Assembly (NCBI RefSeq): GCF_002240055.1
Contig: NZ_CP016753.1
Location: 248,001-312,000 of the forward strand
Direction: 5' to 3'
Source: Leptotrichia sp. oral taxon 498
Lineage (GTDB): Bacteria; Fusobacteriota; Fusobacteriia; Fusobacteriales; Leptotrichiaceae
Length of the DNA: 64,000 bases
The notes below the pieces were generated by a model. It was not told the DNA's origin. It did not search any database and saw nothing but the letters and a program-made list of their open reading frames with translations. Made by a program: the position numbers and the translations under genes. Positions 14,797 to 46,749 of the stretch are shown here, in pieces. Each line of letters begins with the position of its first letter. Positions within the stretch are counted from its first letter, which is position 1.

Positions 14797-14828
14797 TAAT
14801 GTTACTACCTTGAAAGGAAGGTGAGTTG

Positions 14829-16387
14829 ATGAAAAGGATAACCAAAATAGATGCCTCGGTCACTGCGGAAGTGAAAAAGACTAGAGCAGCGGCATACTGC
14901 AGAGTATCCACGGCCAGTGATGAACAGCTGATAAGCCTTGAGGCACAAAAGACAAATTATGAAAGCTATATCCGGTCAAATGACGATTGGGAGTATGCAG
15001 GCTTGTATTATGACGAAGGAATCACTGGTACCAAGGCAGAAGTCAGAGACGGGCTGCAGGCTCTTCTTAGGGACTGCGAAGATGGGAAGATTGACCTCAT
15101 TATTACAAAATCCATCAGCCGTTTTTCAAGAAATACTACAGACTGTTTGGAGATGGTCAGAAAGCTTGTGGAAATGGGAGTGTTCATATTTTTCGAGAAG
15201 GAGAATATCAACACGGGATCAATGGAAAGTGAATTAATGCTTTCCATTCTCAGCAGTCTTGCCGAAAGCGAATCGGTATCGATTTTGGAAAACTCCAAGT
15301 GGAGCATCCGAAGAAGATACCGGAACGGAACATTTATTATTTCCTATCCGCCTTATGGATACGCAAATATAGAGGGTGAGATGAGAATTGTTCCGGAAGA
15401 AGCAGAAGTGGTAAAACGAATATTTGCTGAATGCCTGGCAGGGACGGGAACCTACACCATAGCAAAGAGGCTGAATGAGAATCATATCCCAACTAAAAAG
15501 AACGGCAAGTGGCATGGCGGAACCGTAAACGGAATTCTGACAAATGAAAAGTATACCGGCGATGTTTTATTCCAAAAGACCTATACGGATGACGGCTTTA
15601 ACCGACACACGAATTATGGCGAGGTTGACCAGTTCTTTTGTGAAACTCATCATGAAGCCATTATCAGCCATGAGGATTTTGAAAGGTGCAGGAGGTACTT
15701 GCTCAAAGAGTTGCAGAAAAAGGCAACGGCATCAATATATCAAGGTATCAGAACCGTTATACATTTTCAGGAAAGATTATATGTGGAGAATGTGGTACGA
15801 CCTTTAAGCGAAGAACCCATTATAAGCCAAGCGGAGATTATATTGCCTGGACTTGCGGACAACATATCGAAAACAGGCATGCCTGCACAATGCTTTATGT
15901 TGAAGAATCGGCAATCAAAAGTGCCTTTACAACAATGATAAATAAGCTGGTGTTTGGTCATCAAAGAATGCTGAAGCCGATGCTTTCATCACTGAAAGGT
16001 ACGGACGACAGAGACAGACTGATACAAATTCAAAGAATCGAGCAGGCAATTGAAGACAGTGCTCTAAGAAAGCAGACCTTGGTAAGCCTTGCATCACAGG
16101 GAATTTTGGAGCCTGCTGTTTACACCGAAGAGTGTACGGCACTGGCGCTTCAGCAAGAACGGCTGTTGGCAGAGAAAAAGACTCTGGTATCCGATATTGG
16201 CGGAGACAGAGAGAAACTGCATGAACTGGAAAAGCTGATGAAGTTTACAGGAAAAGGACAGATGATGGAACAGTTTGATGATGAGACATTTAACAGTTTT
16301 GCAGAAAAAATAGTAATTGCAGACAGAGAGACAGCCGTTATTCATCTGAAATGCGGATTAAAACTGAAGGAAAGGCTGGTGAGATAA
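14829..16387 (+). pseudogene. Large serine recombinase, one frameshift
   Basis: The N-terminus has the resolvase catalytic fold with the nucleophile in [13 protein letters not shown] (about residue 25), LYYDEGITGT and the ISRFSRNT motif. A Recombinase domain (PPYGYANIEG... NGILTNEKYTGDVLFQKTY) follows. At about 15682-15684 one A is missing from a GAAAGG run: the frame reads F-E-R-C while relatives read F-E-K-V-Q. The second frame continues with the zinc ribbon (CGECGTTF...CGQH...C) and the coiled-coil C-terminus to 16387. GGAAGGTGAG precedes the ATG at 14829. Large serine recombinases integrate and excise mobile elements; this one is inactive unless the shift is an assembly error. Confidence 0.8.
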
Positions 16388-16819
16388 ATGAGACATATTC
16401 CATATGGGTACGATATCATAGATGGAAAGGCAGTTATCAATGAAGAAGCGGCTGAACAGGTCAGAACCTTTTTTCAGCATTATTTGAATGGAGTGGCACT
16501 TACCAAGGCGGCAGAACTTGTTGGGATGACGCTGTTTCATGGAAGTGCAGGCAGAATGCTTAGAAATAAGCACTACCTGGGCGATGATTATTATCCGCAG
16601 ATTATTGATAAGGAAACCTTTGATAAGGCAGAGAAACTCAGACAAGAGAAAGCTGCAGGACTTGGAAGAATCAGAGAACTAAAGACAGCAGAAGAGAAAA
16701 TGCCTGACAAGGCGTTTATATTCAGACCTGCTGAAACAAAATATTCTGATCCATTCAGACAGGCAGAATATGTGTATGGATTGATTGAAAGTGAGGCGCA
16801 GACAGATGGCACAAACTAG
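16388..16819 (+). CDS. Recombinase-domain accessory protein of a serine recombinase module
   Basis: The 143-residue product resembles only the middle Recombinase domain of large serine recombinases ([26 protein letters not shown]...[26 protein letters not shown]), with no catalytic resolvase domain. Such short proteins sit between two full serine recombinases in several Firmicutes mobile elements, as here. It starts directly at the stop of the first recombinase and overlaps the start of the third gene by 14 bases, so the three are translationally coupled. It probably helps DNA binding or directionality; this is inferred from position. Confidence 0.75.
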
Positions 16820-18360
16820 AACTGTTACAATGATTCCTGCAAGAAGACGAGTGGGAAATACGGTGCGAGAAGAGGAAAGACCAAAGCTTAGAGTTGCTGC
16901 TTACTGCCGTGTTTCTACGGACAGTGACGAGCAGGCTACAAGCTATGAAACACAGGTGGAGCATTACATCAGTTATATTAAGAAGAATCCCGAATGGGAA
17001 TTTGCGGGAATATTTTCTGATGACGGTATCAGCGGCATCTACACCAAGAAACGAGAAGGCTTCAATAAAATGATTGATGAGTGTATGGATGGAAAAATCG
17101 ATATGATCATCACAAAATCGATCAGCCGATTTGCAAGAAACACTCTGGACTGCCTTAAATTCATAAGACAGTTAAAGGAAAAGAACATTCCCGTATTTTT
17201 TGAGAAGGAAAATATCAATACGATGGATGCAAGGGAGAGGTACTGCTTACCATCATGGCTTCTCTGGCACAGCAGGAAAGCCAGAGCTTATCACAGAATG
17301 TGCAGTACCGATACCAGAACGGGCAGATGAGCATTAATCATAATCGATTCCTTGGTTTTACGAAAGATGAAGATGGGCATTTGATTGTAAAGCCGGATGA
17401 GGCGGAAGTGGTAAAAAGAATTTACAGATAGTATCTGGAAGGGGCAAGCCTCCAGCAGATAGCAAAGGGGCTGGAAACTGACGGCATTCTAACAGGAGCC
17501 GGCAAGAAAAAGTGGAGACCGGAAACCTTGCACAAGATTCTGCGAAACGAAAAATATATCGGAGATGCCCTTCTTCAGAAAACCTATACGGTGGATTTTT
17601 TGAATAAAAAGCGAGTTCAGAACAAAGGAATTGTGCCGCAGTACTATGTGGAAAACAGTCATGAAGCCATTATTCCAAGGGATATCTTCATGAGAGTGCA
17701 GGAAGAAATGGTACGAAGGGCAAACCTTCACAGTGGAGAAAAGCGAAAGAAGAGAGTGTACAGCAGCAAGTATGCACTTTCCAGCATCGTGTGCTGCTCC
17801 AAGTGCGGAGACATTTATCGCAGAATAACAGAGGAAAGCGTTCCACAGTGTGGAGATGCTGCACCAGAGTTGATTTTGGCCCCGGCAAGTGCGATGCACC
17901 AACTATCAGCGAAGCAGAACTCCAAGATGCAGCTGTCAAGGCAATCAATAAGGCACTTAGTGGCAGAGAAGATATGATGAAAGGTTTGCAGGAGAACATC
18001 GAGAAAATATTGTCTGAGGGTTCTGATACGGCAGTTTAGGAAATCGACAGTCGATTATTGGAACTGCAGAAGGAACTGCTCAAGAAAGCCAATGCAAGGC
18101 AGAACTACGATGCTCTTGCTGATGAGATTGAAGCCTTGCGAGAACAGAAACATACAGTTATGGTAGAAAGTGCAGAACGGGAAGGCATAAAGAAGCGAGT
18201 AGCTGAGATGCAACAGTTTCTTGCGGAACAGAAAACGGAAATCACGGAATATGATGAAAGTCTGGTCAGACAGCTAATCGAGAAGATAACCGTGTATGAG
18301 GATCAATTCGAGGTGATGTTCAAGTCCCATACGACTGTGGAGATAAAAAGAATATTTTGA
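16806..18360 (+). pseudogene. Second large serine recombinase, several disabling mutations
   Basis: The intact start ([15 protein letters not shown]) leads into [21 protein letters not shown] and [11 protein letters not shown], a full resolvase domain. Then: a frameshift near 17235 (one G lost in AAGGGAGAGG); an in-frame TAG at 17428-17430 inside VVKRIYR[15 protein letters not shown]; another frameshift near 17826 within the zinc ribbon ([12 protein letters not shown]); and a TAG at 18037-18039 before EIDSRLLELQKELL. The coiled-coil tail continues to 18360. The accumulated lesions show the gene is dead, so this module can no longer move the element by itself. Confidence 0.85.
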
Positions 18361-18363
18361 TGG

Positions 18364-18397
18364 ATACCCTATGGCATTGCTGTGGGGTATTTTTTAT
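18364..18397 (+). terminator. Intrinsic terminator of the serine recombinase module
   Basis: ATACCC pairs with GGGTAT around a loop containing GGCATTGC, followed by six T, immediately after the recombinase stop. Confidence 0.6.
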
Positions 18398-18437
18398 GAC
18401 TTGACATTATTGTCCGGCAGAGTGATTTATATAGACG

Positions 18438-18470
18438 CAAAAAATCCGTTCTGGCGACACCAGAACGGAT
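18438..18470 (-). terminator. Minus-strand intrinsic terminator
   Basis: ATCCGTTCTGG and CCAGAACGGAT form a perfect 11-bp stem around CGACA (18444-18470). On the minus strand it is followed by a run of six T, so it stops transcripts from the integrase direction. Confidence 0.7.
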
Positions 18471-18493
18471 GAAAATGCAAAGTGTATATTTTA

Positions 18494-18516
18494 CGCAGAG
18501 TGTTTTACTCTATGAA
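18494..18516 (+). repeat. Inverted repeat, left copy, flanking the integrase and operon promoter
   Basis: Twenty-two of 23 bases match the reverse complement of 19890-19912. The core is AGAGTGTTTTACTCTATGAA, itself partly palindromic (AGAGT..ACTCT). It lies downstream of the integrase gene. Confidence 0.8.
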
Positions 18517-18521
18517 AAACA

Positions 18522-18554
18522 AGCCATTTCCTTCGATATTACAGGGAAATGGCT
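18522..18554 (-). terminator. Intrinsic terminator of the integrase gene
   Basis: AGCCATTTCC and GGAAATGGCT form a perfect 10-bp stem directly behind the integrase stop codon on the minus strand, followed by TTGTTTTTC. Confidence 0.7.
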
Positions 18555-19709
18555 CTAAATTTGACGATTTATTTGACGGCTAATAAAATCAGAAAGCATA
18601 TTCATGTTTTTCTGCTTCAGCTCCATTGACGGGTGGACATATCGGTTTAATGTTATGTTTACAGATGCGTGTCCTAAAATTTCACTCAGACTCTTAATGT
18701 CAAATCCAAGTTCTATGCACCTCGTGGCAAATGTATGCCTGAGTGCATGGAAGTTCGCCGGGGCAATTCCTGTTTTCTTAATCATAGATTTGAACCTGTT
18801 TTGCATGGTTCGTGGCTCCACATATAGAGTTGTCTTTCCGGTAAGGAAATAGGTATTAGGTGCATTTTGGCGTTCCTGAAGCATAAGCAGGAGCTTAATG
18901 GGAACATCTCTAACGGAGTACGCACTCTTAGGCGCAGAGATGATGATTTCTGATTTATGATCCGAGTTGCTTTTCACTTGAATTCTCTGCATTGTTTTAT
19001 GAACGTGGATACAATTATCTCGAAAAGATATATCTTCCCATTTCAACGCACATACTTCTCCAACACGGAGCCCTGTATAAAGACTTAGAAATATCCCAAT
19101 ACCTGTGTTGCTTGATTCTTTTAACAAATATTCTGTTAACAAGGATTGTTCGGCTTGACTGAGTATCCTCATCTGCTTTTGTGGCTGCTTGACATTTAAG
19201 CCGTTGAAACTGATAAGTGTGCATTGTTTTGTCTCTGCTGTGAACTCAAATATATTTTTCATAACAGAAATAATGCTGTTAACGGTCTTAGGGGCAAGAC
19301 CAGCATTATTTCTTCCACTACTCGTCAGCAATTTCGATATGTAAGATTGGATATCTGTCCTTGCAATATTTGTAATATTTCTCTGTCCAAATTCCGGAAG
19401 CAGATGATTGTTAAGGATATTTATATATTTTGCAGTGCTGGATTCCTTCCACTGCGATTTATTTGCTTGTATCCATTCATCGGATGCTCTGGAAAATGAA
19501 CAAATTAATAACTCTGAAGCTATAACAGGTACTGCAGAGGTGTTTGATGCAAGGCGAGTCTTAGCGTCCGTTAGCTTAATTTTTACTTCCTTATATGAGC
19601 GAGCAAATACATATCCATATTTTGCTTTGCCATTGATTCGATCTCGAATATATCGTCCTTCCCATCTGCCGTCTTTTCGCTTGTAAATATTTTCGCCTTT
19701 TCTCGGCAT
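18555..19709 (-). CDS. Tyrosine recombinase / integrase
   Basis: The 384-residue protein has the Tn916/phage-type architecture: an N-terminal AP2-like arm-binding part (YKRKDGRWEGRYIRD), a SAM-like core-binding domain (residues 75-165) and the catalytic domain with TGLRVGEVCALKW (first Arg), HALRHTFATR (His/Arg), and LGHASVNITLNRYVH (His/Trp position and Tyr nucleophile). No catalytic residue is missing and the gene looks intact. It reads away from the cargo operon. It probably moves the accessory region or part of it; alternatively, because of the inverted repeats on both sides, it may act as an invertase. No excisionase gene is visible next to it. Confidence 0.9.
   Translation of the reverse strand: MPRKGENIYKRKDGRWEGRYIRDRINGKAKYGYVFARSYKEVKIKLTDAKTRLASNTSAVPVIASELLICSFSRASDEWIQANKSQWKESSTAKYINILNNHLLPEFGQRNITNIARTDIQSYISKLLTSSGRNNAGLAPKTVNSIISVMKNIFEFTAETKQCTLISFNGLNVKQPQKQMRILSQAEQSLLTEYLLKESSNTGIGIFLSLYTGLRVGEVCALKWEDISFRDNCIHVHKTMQRIQVKSNSDHKSEIIISAPKSAYSVRDVPIKLLLMLQERQNAPNTYFLTGKTTLYVEPRTMQNRFKSMIKKTGIAPANFHALRHTFATRCIELGFDIKSLSEILGHASVNITLNRYVHPSMELKQKNMNMLSDFISRQINRQI
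18573..18585 (+). repeat. 13-bp direct repeat (TTGACGGCTAATA), copy 1
   Basis: An identical 13-mer occurs at 19737-19749 just outside the integrase start; this copy is inside the last codons of the integrase. Arm-type integrase binding sites would have such a layout. Confidence 0.6.
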
Positions 19710-42027: not shown

Positions 42028-42696
42028 TTGGAAGAAATAGAAAATTATTATTGTAAAATACCGGATACATTAAAAAGTTATTGTTCCTACTTTGATAATT
42101 TCGTAGTGGAGGATGTTCCAAGCTTTATATTTGAAGAAGAAAATTACAAATGTTTACATGAATATGCTGTCTTTAGAATGGGTTTTTCGGTTGTGACAAA
42201 AAGAAATTGCAGAATTCTTGCTCAGATTATTAATGGGAAAAAAGTTTTAGAAGTTATGTGTGGATTAGGAAGCTACGCATCTACGTTACGAAGCTGTGGA
42301 GTTGATGTTATTGCAACAGATGATATGTCGTGGATAAATTATGATACAAGCAAATACCAAGATTGGAAAACACATGCATGGATCCATGATATAATTAGTA
42401 TGGATGCAATTGAAGCGGTAAAAAAATATGGTAAGGAAGTAGGGTTTATAATTATGAGTTGGCCTCCTCAAAATAGTGACTTAGCATATAAGGTTTTGCA
42501 AACAATGAGAAAAGTCAACCCTGAATGTATACTTATTTATATAGGCGAAAAGAAAGGTGGTTGCACCGCAGATGATCGTTTTTTTGACGATTATATTGAT
42601 ATAAGCAGTAATTTTGCTGAACTGCAAGATTTAAAAAAGAGTTATCATAATTGGAAAAACAATCAATATTTTGATACACAGCTTTTGTTAAAATAG
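42028..42696 (+). CDS. SAM-dependent methyltransferase-like protein of the RiPP cluster
   Basis: The 222-residue protein has a class I methyltransferase motif I, KVLEVMCGLGSYASTLRSCG (about residue 72), an acidic motif II (VIATDDMSW) and a motif-IV-like FIIMSWPPQNSD (about 147), which recalls the [ND]PP[YF] of N-methyltransferases with W in front. I chose TTG 42028, preceded by GGGGGTG. The gene lies 15 bases before the radical SAM gene, so it belongs to the peptide cluster and may methylate the peptide; alternatively it is a resistance or small-molecule enzyme. Confidence 0.7.
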   Translation: MEEIENYYCKIPDTLKSYCSYFDNFVVEDVPSFIFEEENYKCLHEYAVFRMGFSVVTKRNCRILAQIINGKKVLEVMCGLGSYASTLRSCGVDVIATDDMSWINYDTSKYQDWKTHAWIHDIISMDAIEAVKKYGKEVGFIIMSWPPQNSDLAYKVLQTMRKVNPECILIYIGEKKGGCTADDRFFDDYIDISSNFAELQDLKKSYHNWKNNQYFDTQLLLK

Positions 42697-42711
42697 AGGG
42701 AGGTGATGTGA

Positions 42712-44010
42712 ATGAAGTATAAAAAATCGATGTATACGAGAATATTAAAAATTGACGATGATTCTTGGATGGTACATAATCTCTCTTCTGGTTCGGAATG
42801 TATACTTGACAGTCAAGAACTTAAAATTTTGAACAACTGTAGTATGCCTCAGGAAGATTCAAAAGAATTACTTTGCCAGTTATATGAAATGGGTATTATC
42901 GTAAATGACAAAGTTGATGAAATTGCATGCCTTGAATTAGAAAGAAAAATCAGCATGTATTCCTTTACATCCGATGAGGCAGGCTTTGTGATTGCACCAA
43001 CGATGGATTGCAATGCGTATTGTTTTTACTGTTATGAAAATGAGACAAGAAAATCTTGCTATATGGATGAAAGAACAGAAAAAGCTCTTGTTGAATATAT
43101 AAAAAATATAGCATTAGGAAAGAAACGTATGTATATTTCCTGGTTTGGAGGCGAACCGTTACTTTGTAGAGATTTAATAGTTCGAATTAGCAACGAGCTA
43201 ACTCGTTTTGCTGATGAGAACAAAATTGATTATCATTGTGAAATTACGACAAATGGATATTATTTGGACAAAATAATAGATAATATACATGATTTAAGAA
43301 TTTCGGATATACAGGTAACATTAGATGGATTTAAGGAAGAACATGAAAAGAGAAAGCATTTTCTTCAGAATGATTCTTGGGAAAGAATTGTGAATAATAT
43401 ATATGATTTTTCGAGACGGGGAATTCATATTACGTTAAGATTTAACTTTGATAAAGGCAACATACAAAGTATTAAAGAAATGGTGGAATTTCTGATAAAG
43501 CAAGAGAGATGGAATAAGAATATTACGATATATTTTTATCCATTGGAGCCTAATAGCATTCAAGAAAAACTCTATTTTAAAGAAAAAGAATACGAACAGG
43601 TTATGCATAATCTATATACATTCCTTTATAATACGGGATACTACAACGATCGTAAATATGCACTTGATTTTCGTAAATTATCTTTGCCATGCTACGGTGC
43701 AACATTAGGAACTGTTGCCATAGACTATAAAGGATTAATATACCAATGTCAGCATTTACTATGCCGCGAAGAGTATTCAATAGGCGATGTATTTGAAGGC
43801 GTAATTGTAACTGAAAAAGTAAATTCTTGGTATGATGGCACTGTGAGTGACAAATGTAAGAAGTGCGAAGTACTACCTTTATGCCAAGGTGGATGTGTAG
43901 CTAAGCCCCAATTAGGAAAAAATGAGTATGTATGCCATATGATGAAGTACAGAATAAAAACTCAAGAGCAACTTAAAGTTCAAGCCTACATGGATTCGCT
44001 ATTGGAATAA
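42712..44010 (+). CDS. Radical SAM/SPASM peptide maturase
   Basis: The 432-residue enzyme begins with a RiPP-recognition-like N-terminal region (about 1-85), then the radical SAM cluster motif CNAYCFYC (C100, C104, C107), which binds the 4Fe-4S cluster and SAM. WFGGEPLL and TTNGYYL are further family motifs. The C-terminus is a SPASM domain: YQCQHLLC...IGDVFEG...CKKCEVLPLCQGGC with auxiliary iron-sulfur ligands. Such enzymes modify ribosomal peptides (thioether, C-C or other crosslinks). A Cys/His-repeat peptide gene follows. GGGAGGTGATG is a strong ribosome site. Confidence 0.92.
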   Translation: MKYKKSMYTRILKIDDDSWMVHNLSSGSECILDSQELKILNNCSMPQEDSKELLCQLYEMGIIVNDKVDEIACLELERKISMYSFTSDEAGFVIAPTMDCNAYCFYCYENETRKSCYMDERTEKALVEYIKNIALGKKRMYISWFGGEPLLCRDLIVRISNELTRFADENKIDYHCEITTNGYYLDKIIDNIHDLRISDIQVTLDGFKEEHEKRKHFLQNDSWERIVNNIYDFSRRGIHITLRFNFDKGNIQSIKEMVEFLIKQERWNKNITIYFYPLEPNSIQEKLYFKEKEYEQVMHNLYTFLYNTGYYNDRKYALDFRKLSLPCYGATLGTVAIDYKGLIYQCQHLLCREEYSIGDVFEGVIVTEKVNSWYDGTVSDKCKKCEVLPLCQGGCVAKPQLGKNEYVCHMMKYRIKTQEQLKVQAYMDSLLE

Positions 44011-44165
44011 ACTTAAGCTTCAAATTGAAGACAGATGGAAGTCAAATAAGAAAATTAATTAAAAAAATTTTATTTATATAATTACCTGCGGTTCTTGAAT
44101 TGGGAGTGATGTTTAATGTCTTTAATAGGCGTTGATCATAATTAATTATTGGAAGGAGGAAAATC

Positions 44166-44276
44166 ATGAAGGTTGTAAAAGAAAAAAAGAATACTACAAA
44201 GTTAACGAATATCGTTAAAAATGTAGCAGAAATGTCTTGCCATGAGCATTGTCATGAACATTGCCATGAGCATTAA
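44166..44276 (+). CDS. Candidate RiPP precursor with three CHEH repeats
   Basis: A 36-residue ORF starts at ATG 44166 behind an excellent ribosome site (GGAAGGAGG, 5 bases away). The leader-like part is basic and polar (MKVVKEKKNTTKLTNIV..), the core is MS-CHEHCHEHCHEH at the very C-terminus. The three CHEH units use different codons (TGC/TGT, GAG/GAA), so the repeat is kept at protein level. It lies between a radical SAM/SPASM maturase and an ATP-grasp gene, both typical of peptide maturation. The four-residue Cys spacing recalls CXXX-repeat peptides modified by radical SAM enzymes. A metal-binding product is also possible. Confidence 0.75.
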   Translation: MKVVKEKKNTTKLTNIVKNVAEMSCHEHCHEHCHEH

Positions 44277-44299
44277 TTTCTGGACTGTTTGAAAAGAGG

Positions 44300-44333
44300 C
44301 ACCTATTGAGATGATAAATCTCAATAGGTGTTT
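44300..44333 (+). terminator. Hairpin between precursor and ATP-grasp gene (attenuator)
   Basis: CACCTATTGAGA and TCTCAATAGGTG form a perfect 12-bp stem around a 7-base loop, followed by only three T. It likely stops part of transcription so that precursor mRNA exceeds enzyme mRNA, a common arrangement in peptide clusters. Confidence 0.75.
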
Positions 44334-44358
44334 CACAATAATGAAAGAGGAGTGTGTT

Positions 44359-45150
44359 GTGAAATTTCTATGGGTTATTCAATATTCGAATGGAAAACAT
44401 TATAATTGGGTTGCGTTAGCACAAGCAATCGAAAAATTAGATTCAAGATATATAATAAAACGTAAAGAAGAACTGAGCACTATTGATATAAATGAGGCAG
44501 ATTTTCCTATAGTAATAGGGGGAGATGATTTTTTGCTAGAGGCAAAAAAGAACATCAAATTAATTAATGGAATTTTTGAATCTACTTGTTTTTTTAGGGT
44601 AGATACTTATATGAGTATATGGAAGGATGATTATCTTAATTTTCATACAGCCGTGGTAACAAGAAAAAAATTAGATACGATTATTAGCGAAAAACAAGAG
44701 TTCTTTGTAAGACCTCTTTTGGATATAAAGTGCTTTGACGGTCAGGTGATGGATAAAATAAAGGTAGATGAGATTTTGTACATATGCCGGTCTTGTTCTA
44801 AGTATGGAAAGAAATGTTTATGCGTATCTCCGGTTCAAGAAATAGAAAAAGAATGGAGAAGTGTTATAGTTAACAATGAAGTGGTTTCGATATGCAGGTA
44901 TTTGAAAAACGGTAAAAGAGATGTCTCTGAAACTGATGTACCGGAGAAATTGGTTGAATCTTGTACAAAAGCATGTAGTGGAATAAAGGCGCCAGTTGCC
45001 TGGGTAATGGATGTAGCTAAGGTCAAAAATCGATACTATGTATTAGAATGTAATATTTTTAATGCATCAAATTTTTATGACTGTAATAGGGAAAATATAG
45101 TTAAGTCCCTGGAAAATGTTATAAGAAAAGAAAACAAGAATTGCCTCTGA
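44359..45150 (+). CDS. ATP-grasp protein (R2K-type), RiPP cluster
   Basis: The 263-residue product (from GTG 44359) has ATP-grasp features of the R2K clade: FFVRPLLDIKCFDGQVM, SPVQEIEKEWRSVIVNNEVVS and WVMDVAKVKNRYYVLECNIFNAS, where the late Glu/Asn pair binds Mg-ATP. I chose the GTG because AAAGAGGAG is 6 bases upstream; earlier ATGs at 44311 and 44341 lie in the hairpin or overlap that site. ATP-grasp enzymes form amide or ester bonds, so it may tag, cyclise or extend the CHEH peptide. It could instead act on a tRNA-like or amino-acid substrate. Confidence 0.75.
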   Translation: MKFLWVIQYSNGKHYNWVALAQAIEKLDSRYIIKRKEELSTIDINEADFPIVIGGDDFLLEAKKNIKLINGIFESTCFFRVDTYMSIWKDDYLNFHTAVVTRKKLDTIISEKQEFFVRPLLDIKCFDGQVMDKIKVDEILYICRSCSKYGKKCLCVSPVQEIEKEWRSVIVNNEVVSICRYLKNGKRDVSETDVPEKLVESCTKACSGIKAPVAWVMDVAKVKNRYYVLECNIFNASNFYDCNRENIVKSLENVIRKENKNCL

Positions 45151-45463: not shown

Positions 45464-45471
45464 AGGTGGTG

Positions 45472-46077
45472 ATGGAAATTAGAAAACGTGAACTTCTAAT
45501 TAGAAAAATAAAAGAAAATAATGGAATTATAACTACTAAAGAAGTTATAAATCTTGGTATTCATAAAGATGTACTAAAAGAATTAACTATAAAAAAGGAA
45601 CTTGAAAAAATAACAAATGGACTCTATGCACTTCCAAGTGAGAATATTGATGAGTATCTTTATTTCTCATACAGAATACCCAAAGGTATTTTTTCTCACG
45701 AAACAGTGGCGTATTTACAAGGATTATCAACACGAATGCCCCTTGTTTATGTGATGACTGTAAAGGTAGGAGATAATGTCAGCAGAGTTAAGTCGGCAAG
45801 AGATAATATTATTTTTAAGTATGTAAAAAAAGATTATTACGATATTGGGAAAATAACTATAACCAGTCCTTTTGGTAGAGAAATATCAGTATATGACAAA
45901 GAAAGAACCATACTTGATATTATCAAAGATAAGGACAGAATAGATGCACAAGTATTTAGTGAAGTGATAAAGTCTTACTTTGCGAGCAAGGAGAAAAATT
46001 TATTAAAACTATCGAAATACGCTATTATGATGAATATGGAATATGCTTTAAAACAATATTCGGAGGTGTTGCTGTGA
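45472..46077 (+). CDS. AbiEi-family antitoxin/repressor (type IV TA)
   Basis: The 201-residue protein has the AbiEi layout: an N-terminal winged-helix (KIKENNGIITTKEVINLGIHKDVLKELTIKKELEKITNGLYALP) and a C-terminal domain beginning YRIPKGIFSHETVAYLQGLSTRMP. It binds its own promoter and counters the AbiEii nucleotidyltransferase. The frame also allows GTG 45466. The gene overlaps the following toxin gene by 4 bases (TGA within GTGA), the usual coupling. The antitoxin looks intact although the toxin is broken. Confidence 0.9.
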   Translation: MEIRKRELLIRKIKENNGIITTKEVINLGIHKDVLKELTIKKELEKITNGLYALPSENIDEYLYFSYRIPKGIFSHETVAYLQGLSTRMPLVYVMTVKVGDNVSRVKSARDNIIFKYVKKDYYDIGKITITSPFGREISVYDKERTILDIIKDKDRIDAQVFSEVIKSYFASKEKNLLKLSKYAIMMNMEYALKQYSEVLL

Positions 46078-46749
46078 AAACACCGGAACAAATAAAAGGA
46101 GCGATTAGGAACATATCTAAGAAAACAGGAGTTAATCCGAACTCTCTGCTTCAGATGTGCTTATTTGAAGGAATACTTGGAAAACTCTCCAAATCAAAAT
46201 ATAGTGAGAATTTTATATTAAAAGGTGGACTTCTTATATCCTCTCTTATCGGTGTTGATATGCGTAGTACGATGGATATGGATACCACGCTTAGAGGTAT
46301 TCCAGTAAATGAAGAGTCTATATCAAATATTTTAAATGAATTATTCCTATTCAAAAATCTTAGAGGAAGGTACAATACCAATTATAACCTATACCATAGA
46401 AACTATACTCGCTGAAAAATTTGAAACCATTTCAAGCAGAAATATTACCACAACAAGAGCAAGGGATTTCTACGATTTGTATATGATATACAGCATTTAT
46501 AAAGATAAAATTGATAAAGACATATTAAGAAAAGCAATAGAAAGAACGAGTAAATACAGAGGTTCTTTTGAAACAGTTTTACAGCATAAGGAAATAGTAG
46601 AGTTATTCTGGAAAAGTGAAACATCAAAAGAACTATGGAAAAAATATACACAGAATAACCCATATGTTAAAGATATTGATTTTTTAGATACTATATCAGT
46701 CTATGAAGAAATAGGTACTGTATTAAATGTGAATGATGATACTAAATAG
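46074..46749 (+). pseudogene. AbiEii-family toxin, internal deletion and frame change
   Basis: The first piece (46074-46345 or so) has the AbiEii start MKTPEQIKGAIRNISKKTG, the nucleotidyltransferase region NFILKGGLLISSLIGVDMRSTMDMDTTLRG and stops making sense after ELFLFKN. The second piece resumes in another frame at GTIPIITYTIETILAEKFETISSR and RARDFYDLYMIYS to the end. Relatives have roughly 70-80 more residues between these, so part of the catalytic domain was deleted and the frame shifted. AbiEii transfers nucleotides to stop growth during phage infection; this copy should be inactive. Confidence 0.85.

Follow-up and report, generated by a model that had tools for sequence, protein, structure and literature searches.

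A RiPP-like gene cluster pairing a CHEH-repeat peptide with a radical SAM/SPASM enzyme in Leptotrichia sp. oral taxon 498

Closest described systems and the locus

In the Clo7bot system (TIGR04334, ctpM), short precursors with an MKxIK-type start and a Cys-rich C-terminal tail adjoin a radical S-adenosylmethionine (SAM)/SPASM maturase, and the loci contain multiple precursors and ABC transporters. The PapB-type ranthipeptides (freyrasin; NF047865) also have a radical SAM/SPASM maturase, whose substrate carries repeats of Cys and an acidic residue. PapB forms links from Cys to Asp or Glu across 0-6 intervening residues; it tolerates Glu, and n=1 is among the Cys-Xn-acid spacings that it accepts (PMC9413430). 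CXXX-repeat maturases (TIGR04115) are radical SAM enzymes whose target peptide has Cys at every fourth residue, and graspetide loci comprise an ATP-grasp enzyme adjoining a short peptide in which Glu recurs. SPASM enzymes are among the frequent neighbours of some ATP-grasp (graspetide) loci (PMC8939145). The window studied here, a 64,000-nucleotide stretch of a 2.15-Mb single-contig genome of Leptotrichia sp. oral taxon 498, contains a compact cluster that shares traits with each of these systems. All of its genes lie on one strand, and they encode a methyltransferase-like protein, a radical SAM/SPASM enzyme, a 36-residue peptide ending in CHEHCHEHCHEH, and an ATP-grasp protein of the R2K clade. 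The enzyme-plus-precursor plan is known, and the CHEH repeat core and its gene neighbourhood were not met elsewhere in the genomes searched.

The presence of the peptide and enzyme cluster is confirmed. The four open reading frames (ORFs) and their positions, as listed by a first-pass annotation of the same DNA, were reproduced on re-checking, and its domain calls hold. The radical SAM protein matches Radical_SAM (PF04055, E=8e-19), the ATP-grasp protein passes the R2K_2 cut-off (PF18299, 54.3 bits vs 26.2), and the domain matches of the methyltransferase-like protein are weak. The favoured interpretation, held with modest confidence, is a small cluster for a ribosomally synthesised and post-translationally modified peptide (RiPP) on a foreign island, in which the 36-residue precursor would receive Cys-to-Glu thioethers from the radical SAM enzyme and the two other enzymes are candidates for tailoring. 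The RiPP-like interpretation of the first-pass annotation thus stands for the pair of enzyme and peptide, which is backed by the adjacent Cys-rich ORFs of related enzymes and by a complete cysteine set, and falls for its comparison with CXXX-repeat peptides.

The CHEH-repeat peptide

The short ORF translates as MKVVKEKKNTTKLTNIVKNVAEMSCHEHCHEHCHEH and is preceded by GGAAGGAGGAAAATC-ATG, so that AAGGAGG stands at ideal spacing, in line with the very strong ribosome site described at first pass. Its repeats are encoded by TGC CAT GAG CAT, TGT CAT GAA CAT, and TGC CAT GAG CAT, and vary solely at synonymous third positions (TGC/TGT, GAG/GAA). A two-repeat DNA pattern with up to three mismatches had 0 matches in 100 shuffles of the window, and CHxHCHxH occurs at a single location, this one, in 96 genomes of the order. 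The CHEH repeat is therefore not due to chance. A spurious ORF would account for a singleton without homologue, but is very improbable given the ribosome site, the exact three-fold repeat with synonymous differences only, the lack of shuffle matches, and a position that matches that of precursors in related loci.

Across 84,980 species genomes, the pattern CH[ED]HCH[ED]H was matched 45 times, in no case beside a radical SAM gene. The in-frame matches belong to His-rich regions of longer proteins or to unrelated ORFs, and many others have no ORF in frame. The search proposed at first pass, for short ORFs with CHEH or CHxH repeats near relatives of both enzymes, yielded no second cluster in these genomes, with the limit that a looser repeat or a single unit would escape the pattern. 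The strict CHEH and CH[ED]H patterns had no match in viral contigs. The looser CHxHCHxHCH gave at least 120 matches there, and was set aside, as those examined were low-complexity His/Cys repeats.

In other genomes, CHEH and CHDH repeats frequently lie within His-rich loops of apparent metal-handling proteins (e.g. L172, L194), which would suit an unmodified metal-binding peptide serving as a zinc, copper, or nickel buffer in place of a RiPP precursor. Such carriers are long proteins, whereas the present ORF is short, has its own very strong ribosome site, and adjoins a maturase whose kin often carry neighbouring Cys-rich peptides. A metal buffer is thus improbable.

The radical SAM/SPASM enzyme

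The enzyme contains the CX3CX2C motif and the full set of seven SPASM cysteines. These residues (C100, C104, C107, and C327, C346, C382, C385, C391, C395, C408) are kept in 17/17 enzymes checked. Both broad marks of a radical SAM/SPASM RiPP maturase, the cysteine set and an adjacent short Cys-containing ORF, are therefore present. Among the NCBIfam models, Clo7bot TIGR04334 scores best (196.6 bits, over nearly the whole protein), followed by TIGR04463 (189), CefB (140), geopeptide (139), and PapB NF047865 (121.1). Every curated cut-off is missed, including those of Clo7bot (600; a positive control from P. bifermentans reaches 731.6) and PapB (340). By sequence, the cluster appears to work in the manner of Clo7bot or ranthipeptide radical SAM/SPASM RiPPs, but lies outside every named family by curated cut-off.

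Each named system differs from the locus in further ways. Clo7bot cores comprise Cys with Ser, Thr, Asn, or Gly, whereas the core here is CHEH, and the multiple precursors and ABC transporters of Clo7bot loci are lacking. PapA has CX3D motifs, in contrast to CHEH repeats without Asp. The CXXX-repeat model TIGR04115 reaches only 60.4 bits (cut-off 350), which is about 136 bits short of the Clo7bot score and far more distant than Clo7bot or TIGR04463; membership of that family, which the first-pass annotation had offered for comparison, is rejected.

A defence function was considered on account of a viperin match in PADLOC (E 1e-11) and dismissed, as the match spans the radical SAM core alone and the SPASM maturase models cover nearly the full length. 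The only relative found in the PDB is 5wgg/5why, titled 'Radical SAM domain protein', which is CteB, the radical SAM maturase of the ranthipeptide thermocellin. An AlphaFold model made without alignment had a mean predicted local distance difference test score of 45 and was not used.

Single-sequence searches of genome contigs and viral contigs gave no relatives of the radical SAM enzyme; these were obtained by whole-genome search. They occur in 19/397 Lachnospiraceae genomes (E<=1e-25), with 25-34% identity, and in 21/391 Clostridia genomes (profile search, E<=1e-45).

Targets of related enzymes

Short Cys-rich ORFs recur in the loci of these relatives, each preceded by an AGGAGG-type site of its own, about 3-160 bp from the radical SAM gene and often downstream of it. 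The short ORFs often start with M, then K or R, then hydrophobic residues (MKVVNRC..., MKVMRLA..., MRLIIEA..., MKKLMKP..., and MKFIKKP... in Clo7bot); the window peptide starts with MKVV. The peptide fits the enzyme-plus-precursor layout of the relatives, and this fit is the strongest evidence for precursor status.

In a tree of 43 enzymes, the window protein falls in a nine-member clade (support 96/92) together with L235, L236, L237, L238, L241, L245, L246, and L294. Cys alternates with Asp or Glu in the targets of 6/8 of these partners. Short peptide targets of this kind are CDPEQCPKCRCSDG in L238 (stretch ACDPEQCPKCRCSDG), CDSSECPDCSDD in L237, CCDDCDWGID in L294, and CSCDTESCMCDGQCHEG in L235, the last of which ends in CHEG; the lipoprotein tails of L236 and L246 complete the six. 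The median number of acids per Cys is 1.04 in the clade vs 0.18 in 20 other loci, and 1.0 in CHEH itself. The one-sided Mann-Whitney p-value for this contrast (p=1.7e-4) is a guide only, because the core stretches were chosen by hand and the loci are phylogenetically non-independent. The survey of the subclade leads to a testable rule, namely that these maturases act on targets with Cys plus Asp or Glu, including the tails of SH3-domain lipoproteins.

The larger partner proteins are of two kinds. Those at L236:3691-4443 and L246:6234-7643 are lipoprotein-like, with a probable SH3 domain and Cys/Asp-rich C-terminal tails, and adjoin radical SAM/SPASM genes; they are possibly large protein substrates that take the place of short precursors. 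Those at L241:6843-7595 and L245:3639-4373 are two related proteins of about 245-250 residues with initial CC-x3-CC motifs (GCCVGNCCVANCC, GCCIKNCC), and their Cys-rich N-termini may be modified.

Proposed maturation of the peptide

The N-terminal MKVV stretch would serve as a recognition leader and the C-terminal CHEH repeats as the core. The peptide is taken as the substrate of the radical SAM enzyme, which would join each Cys sulfur to a Glu side chain in a non-alpha, ranthipeptide-type thioether. The ring spacing would be CxE or nested, with up to three rings and a mass loss of up to 6 Da. Three Cys-to-Glu thioethers within the CHE units form the best reading of the core; they are likely in view of the Cys-plus-acid targets of the subclade and the PapB precedent. 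The histidines would stay free for metal, so the product may bind metal ions. With thioethers holding it in shape, a Cys/His/Glu peptide of this kind would add a new scaffold for metal binding. Since the core is unusually simple and periodic, one expression experiment would reveal the chemistry of this uncharacterised radical SAM subclade.

Other radical SAM chemistry is conceivable: Cys could be bonded to an alpha carbon (sactionine) or crosslinked to His, or a C-C crosslink could form on histidine, and Glu would in each case be only a spacer or metal ligand. The core has two His for every Glu, no relative exceeds 34% identity, and the literature searched gave no established chemistry for Clo7bot, TIGR04463, CefB, or geopeptide, the named families closest to the enzyme. 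The subclade targets are, however, rich in Asp and Glu instead of His, which makes such chemistry unlikely.

Several points weigh against a thioether-forming RiPP cluster. The low identity to all relatives is one, and the hand-picked, non-independent stretches of the acid comparison are another. Within the same clade, L241 and L245 adjoin CC-rich, acid-poor proteins. The peptide has no relative in the genomes searched, which places its coding and its leader-core logic beyond a conservation test. Many related loci lack a short Cys-rich ORF detectable under the same criteria. The gap between enzyme and peptide exceeds that in many relatives, and the cluster has no protease or exporter, which several relatives do have. 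Finally, of the related radical SAM loci, about 45 in number, none has the methyltransferase or the R2K ATP-grasp, and both enzymes are linked to the peptide by adjacency or gene order and a common strand alone.

The methyltransferase and the R2K ATP-grasp

Methyltransferase: Its relatives have 29-40% identity, come from Bacillales plasmids and jumbo phages, and have the LEVM-G-G and (S/A)WP motifs in common. None of those examined on plasmids and in jumbo phages has a radical SAM partner. In the cluster, it is a candidate tailoring enzyme that would methylate His or Glu.

R2K ATP-grasp: The active-site residues FxRP...K, ExR, D, and ExN are intact, as FVRP...K, EWR, D, and ECN align with those of phage and plasmid relatives. 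As a candidate tailoring enzyme, it would ligate an amino acid to the C-terminus or to a Glu. The family (R2K family 2, DUF4343, PF18299) is rare; phrog_7313 matches 2/391 Clostridia genomes, and neither match adjoins a radical SAM gene. With the ATP-grasp protein as query, no match was found in 397 Lachnospiraceae genomes, a weak negative from a search without any positive. An R2K gene is present in one genome of the same family as the window (4.5 Mb), and Sebaldella termitidis is listed among R2K carriers (PMC4431377). The known contexts of R2K family 2 are phages and other ligases (PMC4431377); that paper mentions neither a radical SAM enzyme nor a RiPP precursor as partner, and the present searches found none either. 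The literature searched contains no pairing of an R2K ATP-grasp with a radical SAM enzyme, and the term 'radical SAM' does not occur in PMC4431377.

Graspetide identity is rejected. A graspetide core needs Glu or Asp plus Ser, Thr, or Lys, whereas CHEHCHEHCHEH has Glu and no Ser, Thr, or Lys after the first Cys for ester or amide rings. The ATP-grasp is moreover of R2K family 2, and R2K, DUF4343, and CDC123 are unmentioned in the graspetide survey (PMC8939145).

The odds that these two enzymes act on the peptide are about even, since gene order and common strand are their only links to it. Almost as credible is a real pair of radical SAM enzyme and peptide with two unrelated neighbours, which would be mobile-element or phage-type cargo. 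Besides the lack of both enzymes at related loci, this view draws on their relatives, which occur as stand-alone genes on megaplasmids and in jumbo phages, on a proposed function of R2K genes in phage-host conflict (PMC4431377), and on the AbiE module downstream of the cluster. In contrast, the methyltransferase gene ends 15 bp from the radical SAM gene, a single strand is used throughout, the GC content at third codon positions is similar in the four genes (0.24-0.30), and the R2K active site is intact.

A bolder and rather doubtful proposal is a hybrid RiPP. The radical SAM enzyme would form Cys-Glu thioether rings on the CHEH-repeat core, and both the R2K ATP-grasp and the methyltransferase would afterwards modify that peptide, for instance by ligating an amino acid to the C-terminal His and N-methylating His; the product would be a crosslinked peptide that binds metal. 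If true, no earlier RiPP would have involved an R2K-clade ligase, and the peptide would, as far as is known, be the first defined substrate of that ligase family. Action of the ATP-grasp on the peptide would in any case supply a defined substrate for a ligase clade proposed in 2015 from sequence alone.

Cluster layout and genomic setting

The features of the cluster are listed in Table 1. The intergenic gaps are 15 bp between methyltransferase and radical SAM gene, 155 bp between radical SAM gene and peptide, and 82 bp between peptide and ATP-grasp, counted from GTG 44359. This GTG has its own AGAGGAG site, whereas the alternative ATG 44311 falls within a hairpin, so the GTG is the better placed start. 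The 17-bp hairpin, which the first-pass annotation does not mention, has no clear U-tract and is possibly a partial terminator or an mRNA stabiliser. Rfam had no match within the window. The gap from the radical SAM gene to the precursor also contains a 9-codon ORF (MSLIGVDHN, 44087-44145), accompanied by a stretch that resembles a ribosome site.

Table 1. Coordinates of the cluster features in the window
Feature	Position	Strand	Details
Class I SAM-dependent methyltransferase-like protein	42028..42696	+	222 aa, TTG start
Radical SAM/SPASM peptide maturase	42712..44010	+	432 aa
Shine-Dalgarno site AAGGAGG of the short ORF	44152..44158	+	strong
Putative precursor peptide	44166..44276	+	36 aa; leader MKVVKEKKNTTKLTNIVKNVAEMS, core CHEHCHEHCHEH at extreme C-terminus
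17-bp stem-loop between precursor and ATP-grasp	44296..44334	+	-26.5 kcal/mol, z -6.4
ATP-grasp, R2K clade family 2 (DUF4343-type)	44359..45150	+	263 aa from GTG

The cluster sits inside a block of foreign base composition, likewise absent from the first-pass annotation, with a GC content of 0.31-0.43 vs 0.22-0.28 in both flanks. The radical SAM gene is unmatched in 12 congeners sampled, and the cluster was therefore probably acquired from elsewhere. The left start of the block comprises serine recombinases and a tyrosine integrase. Several neighbouring serine recombinase ORFs with GC up to 0.43 and, on the opposite strand, the tyrosine integrase occupy 14826-19709. The region 20344-40774, also of foreign composition, contains a DO-GTPase1 protein, two Hsp70s (one fused to VWA), a weak GAP1-M match, a HerA-type ATPase, a non-specific endonuclease, and a transglutaminase-like protein, and looks like a conflict system centred on GTPase/Hsp70. 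Directly downstream of the cluster is an AbiEi/AbiEii toxin-antitoxin module (45466-46749). Its AbiEii gene is divided between two overlapping frames, 46074-46415 and 46336-46749, and thus appears broken.

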